Positions 2 to 12,661 of a stretch of DNA of 64,000 bases are shown one piece after another. The stretch comes from Candidatus Poribacteria bacterium. Lineage in GTDB: Bacteria > Poribacteria > WGA-4E > WGA-3G. Position numbers and translations under genes: made by a program. The stretch covers positions 1-64,000 of the forward strand of contig JAPOZO010000009.1 in the NCBI GenBank assembly GCA_026706025.1, given 5' to 3'. The notes under the pieces were generated by a model. The model did no database searches. It was not told the origin of the DNA and was given only the letters and a program-made list of their open reading frames with translations. The first letter of the stretch is position 1. Every line of letters starts with the position of its first letter.

Positions 2-2620
2 GGAGTTATCACAGCACTTCGTGCAAGCAATTTGAATCTGCCTGCTGGCACGATGGAACTCGGAAATACAGAGTTCATGGTCCGCACGATGGGCGAATTT
101 TCAAATCCAGACACCATAGGCGAAACTATCATCGCCGTTCAACCCACAGGCACCCCACTCCGCCTTAGCGATGTCGCAACTGTCTTAGACACTTATGAAG
201 AAGCGCGAACCTTATCACGAATCAGTGGAAAACCTTCTATCAGTTTGAGTGTCCAAAAAAAGACGGAGGGTAACACGATCGCGTTAGTTGCCGTGCTCCG
301 CGAATTAGTTGAAAAACGGAAAATCGACCTTCCCGAAGGTGCCGAATTGACAGCAGTTAACGACTACTCTGTTATTCTAAAGGAACGGTTAGGCATTCTG
401 GAGACGAATGCTATTTTCGGTTTGATTCTCGTTGTGCTGATGCTTCTTCTCTTTATTGGTTGGCGAAATGCAGTGTTCGCTGCACTCGGGATACCGGTTG
501 CGTTTATGGCGACCTTCTGGTTCATGTCTGTCGCGGGTTATACACTCAGCGGCGTCTCCCTGTTTGGACTCATCTTGGTCGTCGGGATTGTCGTTGACGA
601 CGCTATTGTCGTCATAGAAAATATCTATCGGCACCTTGAGACAGGGGAATCCCCAAAAGTTGCCGCTATTCGCGGCGCGCAAGAAGTGGGTTGGCCGGTT
701 ATCGCCGCAAGTTTGACGACAATCTGCGCATTCGGTCCCCTGATGTTCATGTCCGGTGTATCCGGTCAGTTTATGCGGATCGTTCCGATCATGGCAATTC
801 TCGTCCTGATCGCATCCCTCTTTGAAGTCTTCGTAATTTTGCCTGCACACGTCTCTGAATGGGGAAAAGCCAAACTGCCGGAAGGACGTAGTAGGTTTGA
901 TCCCATCCGCCGCCGATCTCAGAGTGCTTTCACTCTAAGTGCCCGAATTACAGGTTTCTTTGTGTGGTTCGCCACCTTTTTTGACCTCATACGGAACCGA
1001 TATGTTAGGATCCTAAAAGTAACAATCCGATATCGGTATGCTTTTGTTGGAAGTGTCCTTCTCATCGGTTTGATCGCGTGCGTTGGCGCATTTTTGGTTC
1101 TCGACAAAGAACTTTTCCCGGGCGAAGATTTTCCGCAATTCTACGTCAAAGCCGAAATGCCGCCTTCCTACGGCATGCAAGAGACGACCGCTGTCATAGC
1201 ACAAATTGAAGCAGCTGCGAAGACCCTTCCATCAAGTGAAGTCGCTGCGATTGTCAGTAATATCGGTATACATACACCGACTTCAGGACTGCTGGAAGGT
1301 GTTACTTATGGCTCCAATTTTGGTGAGGTCATCATTGAACTCACCCCCAAACGGCAACGGACCCGCGGCGTAGATGAAATCATTGCCTCAATGCGAAAGG
1401 AAACAGCAACTGTTAGCGGGATAGAACAACTGAATTACATTACGCAAGAAGGTGGCCCTCCACAAGGGCAAGACGTGGAAGTCAAGGTAAAGGGGCCCCG
1501 ATTTGAGCAATTGACAGCACTCGCTGAAGTCCTGAAAACCACTCTCACTCAAATGGATGGTGTTTACGACATCCGAGATGATTTTCGCACTGGCAAATCT
1601 GAACTCCGTATCTATCTGAAGCCTGAGAAAGCTTATCAATACGGGTTAACAACATTCCAAATTGCACAAACGGTTCGCACGGCTATTGAAGGTGCCAAAG
1701 CCACCACCTACCGTGAAGCAGATGAAGCGATTGATGTCGTCGTCAAATACGAGGAAGATAGCCTAAAAAACATCGCGGAACTCAACAATCTATTGATTGC
1801 AACCCCTACGGGTGCTATTGTCCCGCTCAAAGATGTCGCCGACATTACAGAGGAGAAAGGGTATTCTGATATCCGTCGATTCGATGGGGAGCGGGCGATT
1901 ACGGTTTCCGCATCCGTAGATAGACAGAAAACAACGCCTTTCAAAGTGAATCAGGCGTTAATCAGCACATTCGCCAATGTGGAAACTTTGTACCCAGGAT
2001 ACCAACTCGATTTTCGAGGACTTTTCGATGAGATTCGAGATTCTTTTGCGGAATTGTGGAAACTGTTTATCGTCGGTCTGCTGTTAATCTATGTCGTGTT
2101 GGGTGCACAATTTAAGTCGTTTATCCAACCGATTATTATTATGTTTGCCGTTCCGTTCGGTATGATAGGCGCGATGTTTGGACTACTCCTTTCTAATGCC
2201 ACACTTAGTATGGTCGCCATGTTTGGTATCGTTGCACTCTCTGGGATTGTCGTCAACGATTCGATTGTGCTCATCGACTTCATCAACAAATACCGAGAAC
2301 GCGGTTACAATAAGTGGTACGCCATCCTGAAAGGTGGAAGTATCCGCTTGCGTCCGATTATCTTAACATCACTCACAACAATCTTCGGACTCATTCCGAT
2401 GGCAGTTGGTCTCGGTGGTAAATCGCCTATATGGATGCCGATGGCGTACACCATCATCTTCGGACTCTCCTTCGCAACCACGATGACGCTGTTTGTTATG
2501 CCTGCGCTCTATGCAATCACAACAGACCTACGCGGTCTCGTCCTGAAAAACCCAGAAGAACGGTTCCAAATCGTTTCAGATGAAGACCTGTTGGGTGCCG
2601 CGGTACCAGCTGACGATTGA
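2..2620 (+). CDS. RND-family efflux pump inner-membrane subunit (5' truncated by window edge)
   Basis: This is the carboxy-terminal four fifths of an AcrB-like RND transporter, which exports small molecules through the inner membrane using the proton gradient. The reading frame is open from base 2. The residues before the first possible start (TTG at 32) match the downstream paralogue, so about 200 residues lie outside the window. The transmembrane-4 motif GIVVDDAIVVIENIYRH carries the paired aspartates of the proton relay. A large periplasmic loop follows, then a second membrane bundle (VVLGAQFKSFIQPIIIMFAVPFG region) ending in VMPALYAITT. The next gene is a close paralogue in tandem. The membrane-fusion partner is not in the window and presumably lies upstream. 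Substrate cannot be inferred. Confidence 0.95.
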   Translation, partial: GVITALRASNLNLPAGTMELGNTEFMVRTMGEFSNPDTIGETIIAVQPTGTPLRLSDVATVLDTYEEARTLSRISGKPSISLSVQKKTEGNTIALVAVLRELVEKRKIDLPEGAELTAVNDYSVILKERLGILETNAIFGLILVVLMLLLFIGWRNAVFAALGIPVAFMATFWFMSVAGYTLSGVSLFGLILVVGIVVDDAIVVIENIYRHLETGESPKVAAIRGAQEVGWPVIAASLTTICAFGPLMFMSGVSGQFMRIVPIMAILVLIASLFEVFVILPAHVSEWGKAKLPEGRSRFDPIRRRSQSAFTLSARITGFFVWFATFFDLIRNRYVRILKVTIRYRYAFVGSVLLIGLIACVGAFLVLDKELFPGEDFPQFYVKAEMPPSYGMQETTAVIAQIEAAAKTLPSSEVAAIVSNIGIHTPTSGLLEGVTYGSNFGEVIIELTPKRQRTRGVDEIIASMRKETATVSGIEQLNYITQEGGPPQGQDVEVKVKGPRFEQLTALAEVLKTTLTQMDGVYDIRDDFRTGKSELRIYLKPEKAYQYGLTTFQIAQTVRTAIEGAKATTYREADEAIDVVVKYEEDSLKNIAELNNLLIATPTGAIVPLKDVADITEEKGYSDIRRFDGERAITVSASVDRQKTTPFKVNQALISTFANVETLYPGYQLDFRGLFDEIRDSFAELWKLFIVGLLLIYVVLGAQFKSFIQPIIIMFAVPFGMIGAMFGLLLSNATLSMVAMFGIVALSGIVVNDSIVLIDFINKYRERGYNKWYAILKGGSIRLRPIILTSLTTIFGLIPMAVGLGGKSPIWMPMAYTIIFGLSFATTMTLFVMPALYAITTDLRGLVLKNPEERFQIVSDEDLLGAAVPADD

Positions 2621-2628
2621 GAAATGAT

Positions 2629-2654
2629 AAGGCGAGGTTTTCGGACCTCGTCTT
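2629..2654 (+). terminator. Possible rho-independent terminator after first RND gene
   Basis: A 10-bp stem (aaggcgaggt with acctcgtctt, one G-T pair) encloses a 6-base loop, starting 9 bases after the stop codon. The T-run ATACAATTTTTG follows at a short distance. It may separate the two tandem RND genes into different transcripts. Confidence 0.55.
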
Positions 2655-2737
2655 ATACAATTTTTGCCTTTTTGAGATGAAATGTCTGTAGGTAAAACCC
2701 TAAATCCCAAGATCCCACACAATAAAATTCGATCACC

Positions 2738-5700
2738 ATGTCCATCCCCAAAATATCCGTGAATAACCCCGTTTTAGCGAATCTCCTGATGATTATAATC
2801 ATCGTTTTTGGGTTGTACGCATGGATGAATCTACCGCGGGAACTCACTCCAGAAGTCTCAGTACAGAGCGCAGTTGTGACAACGCTATACCCAGGAGCCT
2901 CCCCAGAAGAAGTCGAGATGCTTGTCACTGCTCCTATTGAAGATGCTATTGAGGAGAACGTCAACAAAGTTGACCTATTGTTTTCTACCTCTTCAGAAGG
3001 ACGTTCTGTTATCTTTGTCGATTTTGAGGAGATAAGCAACCGGGATTTTGACAAGGAACTTGAAAACATACGCACCGCTGTTGAGCAGGTAAATGAGTTG
3101 CCAGAGGAGATCTTAGATGATCCGAGGGTCGAAGAATTTGATAGCTCATTTGGTTTTCCTATTTTGACGATTGTTGTAGGTGGAAATATTGCGGAAACGC
3201 AGATGCGGAATATTGCTGAGAATCTCAAAGATGAAATCTCGGACCTCAAAAACATTGCCTCTGTCGGAATGGCAGGTCTCCGTGAGAGGGAAATATGGAT
3301 TGAGGTGAACCCTGATCGATTGAAGGCATACCGACTCCCAATTTCAGCGGTTATTACCGCGCTCGGAACAAACAACTTGAATCTCCCCGCCGGCACAATG
3401 GAACTGGGTGGGACAGAATTCATGATCCGAACGATGGGAGAATTCACCGATTTGGACACTATTGGCGAAACTCTCATCACTGCTCAGCCGACAGGGACAC
3501 TTCTCCGCCTGAAAGATGTGGCAACAATCTCTGACACCTACGAGGAGGTGCGAACGCTATCGCGAATTGATGGCCAACCTTCGATTAGCCTGAGTGTGCA
3601 AAAGAAGACTGAGGGAAACACAATTGCATTAGTTGCTAAACTTCGAGAATTAGTCGACAATCGGAGAACGTCCCTCCCTGAAGGTGCTGAGTTGACGGTT
3701 GTTAATGACTATTCCGTTGTTCTCAAAGAACGATTAGGAATTCTTGAAACAAATGCGTTTTTCGGTTTGGTGCTTGTTGTACTAATGCTCCTTCTCTTTA
3801 TTGGATGGCGGAATGCCCTATTTGCGGCACTCGGCATACCGGTCGCCTTCATGGCAACATTTTGGTTTATGTCCATTGCTGGTTATACGCTCAGCGGTGT
3901 CTCCCTGTTTGGGCTTATTTTAGTCGTAGGGATTGTCGTTGATGATGCTATTGTTGTCATGGAAAACATCTATCGGCATATTGAGTCTGGAGTATCTCCA
4001 AAAGTTGCCGCTATCCGCGGTGCAGAAGAGGTCGGTTGGCCCGTTGTAGCGGCAAGCCTGACGACAATCTGTGCTTTTGGACCGTTGATGTTTATGTCTG
4101 GTGTTACTGGACAGTTTATGCGGATCGTGCCGGTTATGGCAATTCTGGTGTTGATAGCTTCTCTTTTTGAAGTCTTTGTAATTTTACCAGCACACGTCGC
4201 TGAATGGGGGAGAACCAAAATTCGCACAGGACGCAGTAGGCTTGAAAATCTCCGAACCGAGTCTCCGAGGGGTTTCACCCTCGGTGTCCGCATTGTCGGC
4301 TTTTTCGTATGGTTTGCCTTGTTTTTTGAATTAATTCGGAACCGATATGTTAGAATCCTGAAAATAACCATTCGACACCGATATGCGTTTGTAGGTGGTA
4401 TCCTCTTCTTCGGATTGGTTGCATGTATCGGGGCATTTTTTGTGCTTGACAGGGAACTCTTCCCTGGTGAAGAGTTCCCACAATTTTATGTCAAAGCCGA
4501 GATGCCACCTTCCTACGGAATACAGGAAACAACAGAAGTAATTGTCCAAATTGAAGAGATGGCTAAAAGACTTCCATCGACTGAAGTTGATGCGGTCGTC
4601 AGCAATGTCGGTTTACACACATTTATGTCAGGTTTGGTAAGAAAAAGTGTTACCTACGGCTCAAATTTAGGAGAGGTAATCGTCGAACTCACACCAAAGC
4701 AAGAGCGCACCCGAGGTGTGGATGAGATCATCGCAGAACTACGGACGAAAACCGCTACAATTAGTGGAATTGAGCGACTGAGTTTCGCCACACAGGACGG
4801 GGGGGCACCACAAGTAGCAGATGTGCGAGTCAAAGTAAAAGGACCGAGATTTGAGAATCTGACTGAACTCGCTGGCGTTCTTAAGACAGCCCTATCTCAG
4901 ATAGATGGCGTTTACGATATCCAAGATGACTTCAGCATCGGAAAATCTGAACTCCGCATCTACTTGAATCAGGAGAAAGCATATCAATATGGATTAACCA
5001 CGTTTCAGGTTGCCCAAACCGTTCGTACTGCTTTGGAGGGGGCTAAAGCCACAACTTATCGTGAAGCAGACGAAGCGATTGATGTCATTGTCAAATATGA
5101 GGAAGATGCCCTTACAAATCTCGCGAAGCTTAATAATCTCTTGATTACAACACCCACTGGTGCTATTGTCCCACTCAAGGATGTTGCAAATATCGTGATG
5201 GAAAAGGGGTACGCAGATATCCATCGGTTTGACGGTGAGCGAGCAATCACGGTTTATGCATCCGTAGATAAAGAAAAGACGACTGCCTTTAAAGTGAATC
5301 AATCGCTCATCAGTGCATTTGCTGGCATAGAATCTTTGTATCCGGGATACCAACTCGATTTTCGAGGGGTTTTTGATGAAATTACAGAATCCTTTTCCGA
5401 GTTGTGGAAGTTGTTCATTGTTGGGCTGTTGCTAATCTATGTGGTATTGGGTGCACAATTCAGGTCATTTATACAACCGATTATCATTATGTTTGCTGTT
5501 CCGTTTGGTATGATCGGTGCGATGGTCGGACTCCTACTTTCCCATGCGACACTTAGCGTCGTCGCTATGTTTGGTATCGTTGCCCTTTCCGGGATTGTGG
5601 TGAACGATTCAATTGTGCTTATCGACTTCATTAACAAGTACCGAGAAAAGGGATATAACAAGTGGTACGCTATTCTGAAAGGCGGTAGTCTCCGATTGCG

Positions 5701-7000: not shown

Positions 7001-7492
7001 TTATCCAAACAGCACGCCTGCCAAATTTCGCGGTCTGCCACAACGACCTGTCAGAATTTGCAACCACTTGCCGTGGACGAATACTTTCAGTTGCCTTGCT
7101 CCTTTAGGATTCGTCCACTTAACACCTCGACCTTCAAATAGAACAGGTGTATAGATAATTTGTGCACGGATTGAAACTGGCGCGATTTGCGCAATAAATT
7201 TCAGACTGTTTTCCGTCTTTTCAATTACGTCTGATTCAACGGCTCTCCCACGCTTGAGTTCGATCGCAGCTGCAACGAGATTGCTTTCAACAGGATGAAT
7301 GAAGAAGAGAAGTCGGTCACACCGTTTTTCTGTCCTTCCTCGCATGTCAAATTCATGCTCCAGATTTACAACTACCCGTTCAGACGGCACCTCAGCCATG
7401 TCAACGTTGCATCCTTCTCCACTACACGAATTGATCAGACTACTTTCATTGAAAAGCACTCGGAATTCACCAAGAACCCTACTCTCATGCAC
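7001..7492 (-). CDS. PD-(D/E)XK-like protein paired with AAA ATPase
   Basis: This roughly 163-residue protein of no recognised family overlaps the 3' end of the upstream ATPase gene. From the GTG start, residues D59, E78 and K80 form D-x18-E-x-K (CDRLLFF ... AAAIELKRG), with an upstream acidic stretch NLEHEFDMRG. This spacing fits the PD-(D/E)XK nuclease fold, which is an inference. The GTG at 7492 is preferred because AAGGTGA stands 9 bases upstream, giving an 8-base overlap with the ATPase stop; a TTG at 7519 would add nine residues. The overlap implies translational coupling and a joint function. The C-terminal part is basic. Confidence 0.75.
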   Translation of the reverse strand: MHESRVLGEFRVLFNESSLINSCSGEGCNVDMAEVPSERVVVNLEHEFDMRGRTEKRCDRLLFFIHPVESNLVAAAIELKRGRAVESDVIEKTENSLKFIAQIAPVSIRAQIIYTPVLFEGRGVKWTNPKGARQLKVFVHGKWLQILTGRCGRPRNLAGVLFG

Positions 7493-8960
7493 GCTCGCTG
7501 TCACCTTTCGTTTCTTCAAGTCTATTTTGGAGACGTGCAGAACGGTTGTAGAGATCTTCAGCCACGTCTAAATATTCCATAGGTTCCACTCCGTTGATAC
7601 GGTCATACGGAATTTCCTCCACCTTTCCACTCTTTTGAAAATGCCAAACGCCGACCTGTTCTTTCTGAAGAGAAGTCGGTAGTTCGCTAACCCTTTTTCC
7701 AGCGTTCTCAAGCTCTCCTACGCGCATCAGATTCCCAATTTCCTGAAGCAACCAATCACTGTGTGTTGTTATGATCACCCTAACCCCTGCCTGGACTAAG
7801 CGAGCGAGAATGACCGCCATATCCGCTTGAGCACCGGGATGTAGGTGTGCTTCCGGTTCCTCGATAATAAGTGTATCACCAGGGTTAATGAGACCTCGGA
7901 GAAATAACACCAGAGGAGCAAGTTCAGATACCATTGACGAAGCTTCGCTTAAACGTATATCCTCTTCTATACCTTGTGGACGGTAGTAGAAACCTGGATA
8001 CCCACTTGGTGAGAGTTTTAGGAGTATTCGTCCAGCAAGCACTTCGGATTCTAGTGTTTCTGCAAGGCACTTCATTTCGTCATTGGAAACGCTACCCTCT
8101 TCATAAAGAATAACCCTTTCCATAAAGTCTGCTATCGCGCCTGACATAGTGGGAACCTCGGGGAAACGTTCCAAGCCTACGCGGGTGGTCCGCTTCACAA
8201 GTGAACTTGCGATAATGCGATGGCTTTGCATAATACCACTACGAGCGGCAGGTAAGTAAAACCTATTGGGGACCAGAGGACGCCTAAAATCTACTATGTA
8301 AACTCTATTATCATCAACGCTTAATTTCCCGTAAGCCGACCACTCTTTAGGAAGGAGAACTGTGTCGTCATAATCCGGGCTATCAAGAGAGATTGAATTA
8401 TACAGGCTAACTTCTGACTCAGAAGCCTTCATCTTGATGTTCAAATATTCTTGACCTCTTTCACTGATTCTCAACAAAACCTTTATCTCATTACGCTGTT
8501 CTCCAGTCAACCGCATTAATTCTGAAACAGCATTCAGATCAAAGCAATTTTTGAGTTCATCCCGCAATTCTTGCCTAAAAAAACCTGTATCTTTGATACT
8601 AATCCCTAATTTTTGGCGAATCTCCTCGGAAAAATCCGACAATTTAAAAGACCTATCTATCACATTTAATTTGTTAAGTATCTCCTGAATTTCTCCCTTT
8701 GACGTAGTGAGACCGGTTAAAAGTACACTTAATATTTCCATAACTCCATACTGAAAAGGAGAAAAAAGATTTGAATGAAATAAACCGCTAAAGGCCCCAT
8801 GCAAAGCATACACCAACGTAGCAAAATAGGTCTTCCCAGTGTTACTGGGACCAACAAATACCGTCAGCGGACGCAAATCAATATTCGCTTCAGCAATGGG
8901 ACCGAAATTCTCAACAGCGATTTCAACCTTTGGACCCTGTGTATCTTTGACTTCGCTCAT
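7485..8960 (-). CDS. AAA family ATPase (ABC/SMC-type head, OLD/AAA_15-like)
   Basis: This 491-residue ATPase has the split head typical of SMC/RecF-like proteins. The N-terminal strand VEIAVENFGPI leads to Walker A GPSNTGKT at 37-44. After a long middle region there is Walker B LIIEEPEAHLHP at 364-375 and the H-loop TTHSDWLL near 400. No TOPRIM domain is visible, unlike OLD nucleases. A GGGGAGA Shine-Dalgarno stands 5 bases before the ATG. It overlaps the gene for a PD-(D/E)XK-like protein. Relatives with small nuclease partners are known in anti-phage and repair systems such as Septu and AbiL, but this pair matches none that I recognise. It follows a GH88 gene on the same strand across a REP-like palindrome, so it may have its own promoter. 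Confidence 0.88.
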   Translation of the reverse strand: MSEVKDTQGPKVEIAVENFGPIAEANIDLRPLTVFVGPSNTGKTYFATLVYALHGAFSGLFHSNLFSPFQYGVMEILSVLLTGLTTSKGEIQEILNKLNVIDRSFKLSDFSEEIRQKLGISIKDTGFFRQELRDELKNCFDLNAVSELMRLTGEQRNEIKVLLRISERGQEYLNIKMKASESEVSLYNSISLDSPDYDDTVLLPKEWSAYGKLSVDDNRVYIVDFRRPLVPNRFYLPAARSGIMQSHRIIASSLVKRTTRVGLERFPEVPTMSGAIADFMERVILYEEGSVSNDEMKCLAETLESEVLAGRILLKLSPSGYPGFYYRPQGIEEDIRLSEASSMVSELAPLVLFLRGLINPGDTLIIEEPEAHLHPGAQADMAVILARLVQAGVRVIITTHSDWLLQEIGNLMRVGELENAGKRVSELPTSLQKEQVGVWHFQKSGKVEEIPYDRINGVEPMEYLDVAEDLYNRSARLQNRLEETKGDSERA

Positions 8961-11139: not shown

Positions 11140-11168
11140 TTGTTCAATTCTCGACTCTATGCTATAAT
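11140..11168 (+). promoter_or_regulatory. Sigma-70-type promoter for EF-Tu-like gene
   Basis: TTGTTC and a perfect TATAAT are separated by 17 bases. The -10 box ends 47 bases before the ATG at 11216. Confidence 0.6.
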
Positions 11169-11215
11169 GAAATGGAAATTGCAGTAACAAAATTAGGACC
11201 ATTAGGAGACAGGAA

Positions 11216-12376
11216 ATGACAGAGAAAAAACAGAATACGCATCGTAGACTGCCGATCTGTACCCTCGGTGCGGATGGACACGGTAAAACAACATTGACAG
11301 CGGCGATAGCGAAAGTCGTCTCAAGAATCGGAGCGATTCACACCGATGGTGACAGCAATTTTGAAGCGCAACCGCCTATTAACCACCCAATCCGAGAAGG
11401 GGTCGGCATTACCTACCGCAGGATAGCCTACGAAACCAGCGGCAAACTTTATACACAAATTGACTGCGAAACACATCTTGATGTTGTCAAAATGTTAATC
11501 AGTGGCTCACCGGCAATTCAGGGCGGGATCTGGGTCGTGAATGCAGTTGAGGGGATCACACCTGATTCCCAAGCGCAACTCTACCTTGCACACCAGATGC
11601 ACATGCCGAGAGTCCTTCCTTTTCTCAATACAGGTGGTATTTCAAAAGATGACGAACTTTTGGACATCTGTCTACAGGAGATGGATGAACTACTGAACGA
11701 ATGTGGATGGGGAGAAGAGAGTGCATCAATAACTATTGGGGACGCACTTAAAGCATTAGACTACAAAGGCAATAGCATCACCTCCGCGCAATGGCAGCCA
11801 ATTGTCGATCTGGTCTTCGCGATGAACCGCACAATGCCAGCACCTATAAATACTAAGCACTTGCCGCTTATCATGCCAATCCATGAAATCATCGAAGAAA
11901 CAAAGGATCAGGTATCCGTACATGGTGAGATTGTACAGGGGCAACTCGCCGTTGGTCAAGCGGTAGATATTGTCGGTAAAGGCGATAGGATTAAGACGCG
12001 GGTCCTCAGCACAAAGGAGAATGAAGTGTCCGTTGAATCGGAACCGGATTGGTTGTCTGTCGGGCAAGTGCTTTGTCCACCAAAGACAATCAAATCACAT
12101 TCCGAATTTATTGCACTCATCTATCTGCTGACACACGAAGAGAGCGGCACACATATCCCACTCATCGAAAACGACAGACCCGACATCTACCTCTGGGGCA
12201 TTGATATGCCAGCGCACCTAAAACTCCCATCTGGACTTTCCCTTATTACGCCGGGGGATTATGCCCACGTCACGCTCACACTCGACTTACCGTTAGCAAT
12301 GGAAGTAGGCACCCGATTTGAGGTGAAAAAGATGGGTTCGCGGATTGGTCTCGGTGTTGTGACGGGTGTGGAGTGA
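11216..12376 (+). CDS. EF-Tu-like protein with degenerate GTPase motifs
   Basis: This 386-residue protein aligns along its length with elongation factor Tu (about 394). The P-loop GADGHGKT at 18-25 is intact and corresponds to GHVDHGKT. The switch I position reads EGVGITYRRIAYET where EF-Tu has an RGITI motif. Switch II DCPGH is DCETH (83-87), keeping the catalytic histidine but losing the DxxG glycine. The guanine-specificity motif NKxD is replaced by NTGG at 138-141. Domains 2 and 3 are recognisable (SVHGEIVQGQLAVGQAVDIVG; ALKALD; TPGDYAHVTLTL) and end in a barrel strand GLGVVTGVE. It has an AGGAGA Shine-Dalgarno and a good promoter. It is probably not a housekeeping EF-Tu. Nucleotide binding may be altered or lost. 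Its role is unknown. Confidence 0.88.
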   Translation: MTEKKQNTHRRLPICTLGADGHGKTTLTAAIAKVVSRIGAIHTDGDSNFEAQPPINHPIREGVGITYRRIAYETSGKLYTQIDCETHLDVVKMLISGSPAIQGGIWVVNAVEGITPDSQAQLYLAHQMHMPRVLPFLNTGGISKDDELLDICLQEMDELLNECGWGEESASITIGDALKALDYKGNSITSAQWQPIVDLVFAMNRTMPAPINTKHLPLIMPIHEIIEETKDQVSVHGEIVQGQLAVGQAVDIVGKGDRIKTRVLSTKENEVSVESEPDWLSVGQVLCPPKTIKSHSEFIALIYLLTHEESGTHIPLIENDRPDIYLWGIDMPAHLKLPSGLSLITPGDYAHVTLTLDLPLAMEVGTRFEVKKMGSRIGLGVVTGVE

Positions 12377-12443
12377 TCCGCGGTTTTAAGCAATAGTAAA
12401 TAGTAATCTCTCAGTTTTTTCGGTAGGTGCCGATGCCGAGCTC

Positions 12444-12466
12444 GTAGGGGCGGGGTTTCCCCGCCC
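12444..12466. repeat. REP-like palindrome, first tandem copy
   Basis: A perfect 8-bp GC stem, GGGCGGGG with CCCCGCCC, has a TTT loop and a GTAGG foot on the plus strand. It could act as a bidirectional terminator between convergent genes, but no T-run follows. Confidence 0.75.
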
Positions 12467-12565
12467 GTCATTGATGTAAAATGGGCATATTTAATATTCA
12501 AACTTGCTTAAGCAATATTAAATAATAATCTCTCAGTTTTTTCGGTAGGTGCCAATGCCGAGCTC

Positions 12566-12588
12566 GTAGGGGCGGGGTTTCCCCGCCC
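12566..12588. repeat. REP-like palindrome, second tandem copy
   Basis: This is the same hairpin as at 12444-12466, displaced by exactly 122 bases in the tandem duplicate. Confidence 0.75.
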
Positions 12589-12661
12589 GTCATTGATGTA
12601 AAATGGGCATATTTAATATTCAAACTTGCTTATGAAACTGAAATAAATATTTCGGTAATTC

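Follow-up and report, generated by a model that had tools for sequence, protein, structure and literature searches.

Few known proteins are as constrained as EF-Tu. The locus described here, on a 64,000-nucleotide stretch of a Candidatus Poribacteria contig (JAPOZO010000009.1; hereafter the window), raises the question of what an EF-Tu-like protein does once its G-domain motifs have degenerated. The first-pass annotation had recognised an EF-Tu paralogue from end to end, in an intact frame, and both points hold. The ORF begins with ATG and runs unbroken for 386 residues (Table 1), and in a profile search its product matches the EF-Tu model TIGR00485 over residues 4 to 385 (216.1 bits, E 6e-64), below the equivalog cut-off of 522.4 bits. 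Only GTP_EFTU and GTP_EFTU_D3 exceed the Pfam cut-offs, and EF-Tu chains in the PDB match with E about 1e-52 to 1e-59. A single ordinary EF-Tu is encoded in the source genome (6.27 Mb in 103 contigs); it shares about 32% identity with the paralogue and lies on another contig, next to a large translational GTPase that we take for EF-G.

Table 1. Positions in the window of the gene, its expression signals and the protein segments discussed in the text.
Feature	Position	Strand	Basis
EF-Tu-like pseudo-GTPase gene, 386 aa, standalone transcription unit	11216..12376	+	
Predicted promoter: TTGTTC, 17-nt spacer, extended -10 TGCTATAAT	11140..11168	+	sequence, relatives
Shine-Dalgarno AGGAG	11204..11208	+	sequence; kept upstream of orthologues
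P-loop GADGHGKT, kept; monovalent-cation Asp21 replaced by Gly	11267..11290	+	alignment
Switch I equivalent, without RGITI and without His66	11387..11422	+	alignment
Switch II DCETH (EF-Tu DCPGH); Asp80 kept, Pro82 and Gly83 lost	11462..11476	+	alignment
G4 motif NTGG (EF-Tu NKxD)	11627..11638	+	alignment
G5 motif GDA (EF-Tu GSA), Ser173 replaced by Asp	11738..11746	+	alignment
Family insertion YKGNSITSAQWQP, with invariant Tyr183 and Trp193 (window numbering)	11762..11800	+	alignment
VGKGDRIKTR, conserved domain-2 loop new to the family	11972..12001	+	alignment
Site of deleted aminoacyl-tRNA 3'-end loop (E. coli about 264-285); short remnant ending at Trp279	12017..12052	+	alignment
Trp327 (EF-Tu Arg333), invariant, also in the G053 intermediate	12194..12196	+	alignment
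Lys371-Lys372 (EF-Tu Arg377-Glu378), invariant, also in the G053 intermediate	12326..12331	+	alignment

An AlphaFold2 model made with the family alignment as input (pLDDT 85, pTM 0.74) resembles EF-Tu crystal structures best among PDB entries (TM 0.8-0.9), and the paralogue is predicted to keep the three-domain EF-Tu fold. Its near-equal length masks the deletion of a domain-2 loop (E. coli about 264-285), which is offset by an insertion at about residues 183-195 of the window's protein. EF-Tu has 199 alignable positions with an invariance of 95% or more, and 81 of these are kept in the family.

We surveyed 85 genomes of the phylum, of which 73, in families f1 to f4, belong to the window's order. 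A clear orthologue is present in 71 of these 73, nearly all of which have a normal EF-Tu as well; the two order genomes lacking it are 86% and 78% complete. All named records with the paralogue are Candidatus Poribacteria MAGs, and outside the order the 85 genomes yielded a related gene only in G053, a member of family f8 in the same class. Maximum-likelihood phylogeny places the paralogues in a single group (SH-aLRT 100), separate from the EF-Tus of Poribacteria and E. coli; its stem is long, at 0.99 up to the G053 split and 1.32 beyond it. Pairwise dN/dS of the paralogue is 0.06-0.13 over the whole family; where paralogue and EF-Tu were compared on matched genome pairs, the values are 0.05-0.12 and 0.025-0.07, with dS close to saturation in the distant pairs. 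Thus neither sign of decay foreseen by the first-pass annotation, restriction to a single genome and dN/dS near 1, is seen; the breadth of orthologues and the low dN/dS rule out a pseudogene, and the paralogue is under strong purifying selection. A mobile origin was considered and rejected: the viral contigs searched contained no relative, and phage and plasmid records gave merely EF-Tu-like matches at about 30% identity. Literature searches returned no match for a Poribacteria EF-Tu paralogue. The subfamily is real, conserved and, as far as the literature searched shows, previously unreported.

As a side observation, several class-level MAGs (G051, G055, G056 and G057) have EF-Tu fragments at contig ends, a pattern that assembly breaks at duplicated tuf genes would produce.

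To see which parts of the G domain are kept, we aligned 62 distinct copies of the paralogue with 18 EF-Tus and read the columns in E. coli numbering. The P-loop is nearly always retained (Gly18 in 61/61, Gly23 and Lys24 in 60/61, Thr25 in 59/61); Asp21, the monovalent cation site of EF-Tu (PMC4342817), survives in one of 62 copies. Both switches are degenerate. In switch I, Arg58, Thr61 and His66 are each kept in 0/61 copies; a Thr or Ser is conserved two residues downstream of the Thr61 position and could substitute for it if the loop were re-registered. In switch II, Asp80 is universal (61/61), Pro82 is gone (0/61), Gly83 remains once (1/61), and the catalytic His84 is kept in 43/61 copies and elsewhere drifts to Ser, Tyr, Asn or Gln. 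The G4 motif varies in form (NTGG, NTRN, NKAE, NQTD, NIHN): Asn135 persists in 60/61 copies, Lys136 in 8/61 and Asp138 in 13/61, positions 137-138 vary freely among close relatives, and one family, f4, has an NKxE form. The complete NKxD occurs once among the 61 order copies, in L112, and also in the G053 protein. The Ser173 position, which in EF-Tu adjoins the backbone that binds guanine O6, is never Ser; it is Asp in 60/62 copies and Asn in 2/62. The motifs reported in the first-pass annotation, GADGHGKT, DCETH and NTGG, are thus as described, and its loss of DxxG and NKxD applies to the Gly and to the Lys and Asp, but not to the Asp of the former or the Asn of the latter. By sequence, the phosphate and Mg ligands and Asn135 are retained, whereas the gamma-phosphate sensors (Thr61, Gly83) and the residues of guanine specificity are lost or drifting.

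The most telling change, one absent from the first-pass annotation, is the loss of the aminoacyl-tRNA pocket. Among 61-62 copies, none keeps His66, Asn90, Glu215, Phe218, Arg223, Thr228, Glu259, Phe261, Arg288, Arg318 or Glu378, and Gln329 is kept in one; the 264-285 loop is deleted in every order copy, with the Asn273 position gapped in 62/62. Asn90, Glu215, Asn273, Glu378 and the rest are tRNA contacts of the EF-Tu ternary complex. Positions 316, 329, 375 and 378, which we assume to be those of kirromycin resistance in EF-Tu, are all changed, but are given no weight here. Roles in tRNA contact have been described for Phe218, Glu259, Arg262, Arg288, His66 and Arg58 (PMC9071432). Domains 2 and 3 have in turn acquired invariant residues of their own (in E. 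coli numbering, W285, W333, K296, D326, K377, K378 and G248), which appear to mark a new surface. Trp279 of the window's protein (E. coli 285) is Trp in 62/62 copies, and in the KGDR motif at E. coli 247-250, K248 has become Gly in 62/62 and T250 Arg in 61/62. Taken together, the two domains have an acidic calculated pI (about 5), with some new basic residues (T228R, E259K/R, G296K, E378K).

Two divergent copies stand out. The G053 protein, which shares 47% identity with EF-Tu and 42-45% with the order members, retains NKID and Ser173, and its 264-285 region is present but altered (Asn273 to Arg). Its switch changes are already in place (Thr61 to Pro, Gly83 to Asp, His66 to Gln), as are Arg333 to Trp, Tyr326 to Asp, Gly296 to Lys and Arg377-Glu378 to Lys-Lys. 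By this intermediate, the switches and the surface of domain 3 were altered first, and guanine selectivity and the 3'-end pocket were lost later. Because the gene (L121:402-1661) sits on a contig of 4.2 kb in a single MAG, its host is less certain than its position in the tree. An ORF that by eye is ClpX-like, an AAA ATPase, follows 219 bp downstream on the same strand (1880-3448). At the other extreme, the most divergent orthologue, in G042 (L051/L116), has GEKSN in place of GHVDHGKT and has lost Asn135, with its frame intact; no ordinary EF-Tu was found in that assembly (80% complete). Having lost the P-loop and kept the gene, this lineage shows that the protein need not bind a nucleotide in every case.

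Of the strong promoter and Shine-Dalgarno sequence proposed in the first-pass annotation, the latter is present; the former is half right, as the extended -10 element (11160-11168) is perfect but the -35 element (11140-11145) is weak, and a consensus promoter scan made no call there. The core TTGnnCAAT...TGnGCTATAAT, extended -10 included, recurs upstream of the f1 orthologues. Codon adaptation to EF-Tu/EF-G is 0.66 for the paralogue, as against 0.75 for EF-Tu and 0.60-0.67 for other window genes; this average bias is unlike that of an elongation factor, and abundance equal to EF-Tu is not expected. The gene stands alone, and its neighbours are not conserved between families: in f1 they are mostly the same (a divergent RfaE2-like nucleotidyltransferase, a convergent HisA-like gene and an ABC transporter), and in f2, f3 and f4 they differ from these. 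A 415-aa ORF lies 43 bp downstream of the paralogue in one family and a 376-aa ORF in another, and comparison of neighbourhoods across families gave no conserved operon partner. PADLOC had no match to the paralogue, and Rfam placed no element at its locus.

Directly 3' of the gene, at 12386-12632, lie two tandem copies of a 122 bp intergenic repeat (97% alike); the rest of the genome has about a dozen more, complete or partial. Also in the window, at 7001-8960 on the minus strand, is a gene for an AAA_15/OLD-like ATPase (PADLOC PD-T4-4_A, E 1e-36), overlapped by a small downstream ORF to which PADLOC had no match. The pair holds its place in 18-22 related loci and is perhaps a defence or maintenance module.

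What, then, could the protein do? With the P-loop, Asp80 and Asn135 constrained, and Ser173 replaced by Asp (60/62) or Asn (2/62) while NKxD varies, the base pocket may have been rebuilt for ATP or another non-guanine nucleotide; the protein would then act, entirely outside translation, as an adaptor or sensor coupled to ATP, ADP or another metabolite, and altered switching may persist. There is a precedent in YchF/Ola1, a P-loop GTPase relative and ATPase in which the G4 motif NKxD has become NxxE, which the NKxE of f4 resembles (PMC8779481). The changed specificity suggested in the first-pass annotation has thus become more plausible, through the order-wide Ser173 substitution and the NKxE of one family. 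However, variation at positions 137-138 between close relatives looks like relaxation rather than new specificity, and loss of the gamma-phosphate sensors makes a true switch doubtful; we regard a re-specified pocket as unlikely. Membership of YchF/Ola1 itself was rejected: those proteins are Obg-type, with helical and TGS domains and without EF-Tu domains 2 and 3, whereas the paralogue has only the two EF-Tu domains above cut-off.

The EF-Tu-like fold, and the invariance of Leu145 and Glu152 in helix D, on the EF-Ts and L7/L12 side, would also suit a protein that regulates the translation machinery or serves as its decoy, sequestering EF-Ts, occupying ribosomes or absorbing EF-Tu-directed antibiotics or toxins. 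The decoy and toxin-target readings put forward in the first-pass annotation are weakly supported: the remaining EF-Ts contacts (Gln114, His118, Asp141, Glu348) are not kept, the domain-2 GRG loop is absent and His84 drifts, and Phe218 and Glu259, on which CdiA-CT docks in EF-Tu domain 2 (PMC9071432), are lost in 62/62 copies. Average codon bias also argues against the abundance that a decoy would require, and we hold a decoy to be distinctly improbable. A further reading is a carrier specialised for an unusual RNA or tRNA, as put forward for archaeal aSelBL, a translational GTPase paralogue likewise maintained clade-wide with disrupted G motifs and thought still to bind aminoacyl-tRNA (PMC3037878). 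The new basic residues would fit such a role, yet the paralogue is the mirror case: aSelBL keeps the tRNA pocket, whereas here it is deleted, with every classical contact tested lost, and the phosphate-binding residues are kept. The acidity of domains 2 and 3 points the same way, making an RNA carrier very improbable. Descent from archaeal SelB, and with it membership of aSelBL, was rejected on the profile matches (E 5e-5 for the SelB model, 6e-64 for EF-Tu). As for the lost motifs reflecting a functionless copy in decay, the 71 genomes, the dN/dS values and the conserved promoter leave that idea practically no credence.

On balance, we favour a switch-less, probably nucleotide-bound pseudo-GTPase that acts as an adaptor and is no elongation factor. 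The label pseudo-GTPase follows from a conserved G-domain fold, degenerate switch and catalytic motifs, and maintenance by selection. With EF-Tu, the family's parent, the paralogue shares the fold, the three domains, the P-loop, Asp80 and Asn135; unlike EF-Tu, it has lost RGITI, DCPGH, NKxD and the aminoacyl-tRNA pocket, is not beside fusA, and has average codon bias. Its sequence excludes the parental elongation function with good confidence. In this reading, an ancient EF-Tu duplicate in Candidatus Poribacteria turned into a dedicated pseudo-GTPase that, given the retention of GKT and Asp80, may hold a nucleoside di- or triphosphate structurally without cycling, and that would neither bind aminoacyl-tRNA nor serve elongation. 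Since the tRNA pocket and GTP-sensing residues were lost and the gene was kept by selection, it was probably recruited to a job other than tRNA delivery, as an adaptor or regulator that may bind one or more macromolecules through its remodelled domain 2/3 face; the acidity of these domains makes a protein a likelier partner than RNA. We infer this adaptor role mainly from exclusion of the parental function, no partner gene being linked. Yeast Ski7, an EF1-family relative recruited as an adaptor, which binds GTP and is thought not to hydrolyse it (PMC4509514), offers a likeness in principle, including replacement of the catalytic His; it differs in being eukaryotic and Hbs1-derived, in having an N-terminal region for exosome binding, and in keeping the guanine pocket.

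Atkinson 2015 names a single EF-Tu-like subfamily as clearly distinct among bacteria, actEF-Tu or Tuf3 of actinomycetes (PMC4342817). It too is a lineage-specific EF-Tu paralogue, but is described as a set of condition-specific translation factors, which the Poribacteria paralogue, by its sequence, cannot be. The paralogue is thus a second distinct bacterial EF-Tu-like subfamily, in which the fold has been kept and the switch and tRNA site shed throughout an order. The intermediate in another family of the class allows the passage from a molecular switch to a static binding protein to be studied stepwise. In MAGs such genes are likely labelled 'elongation factor Tu' by similarity, and that label is wrong.
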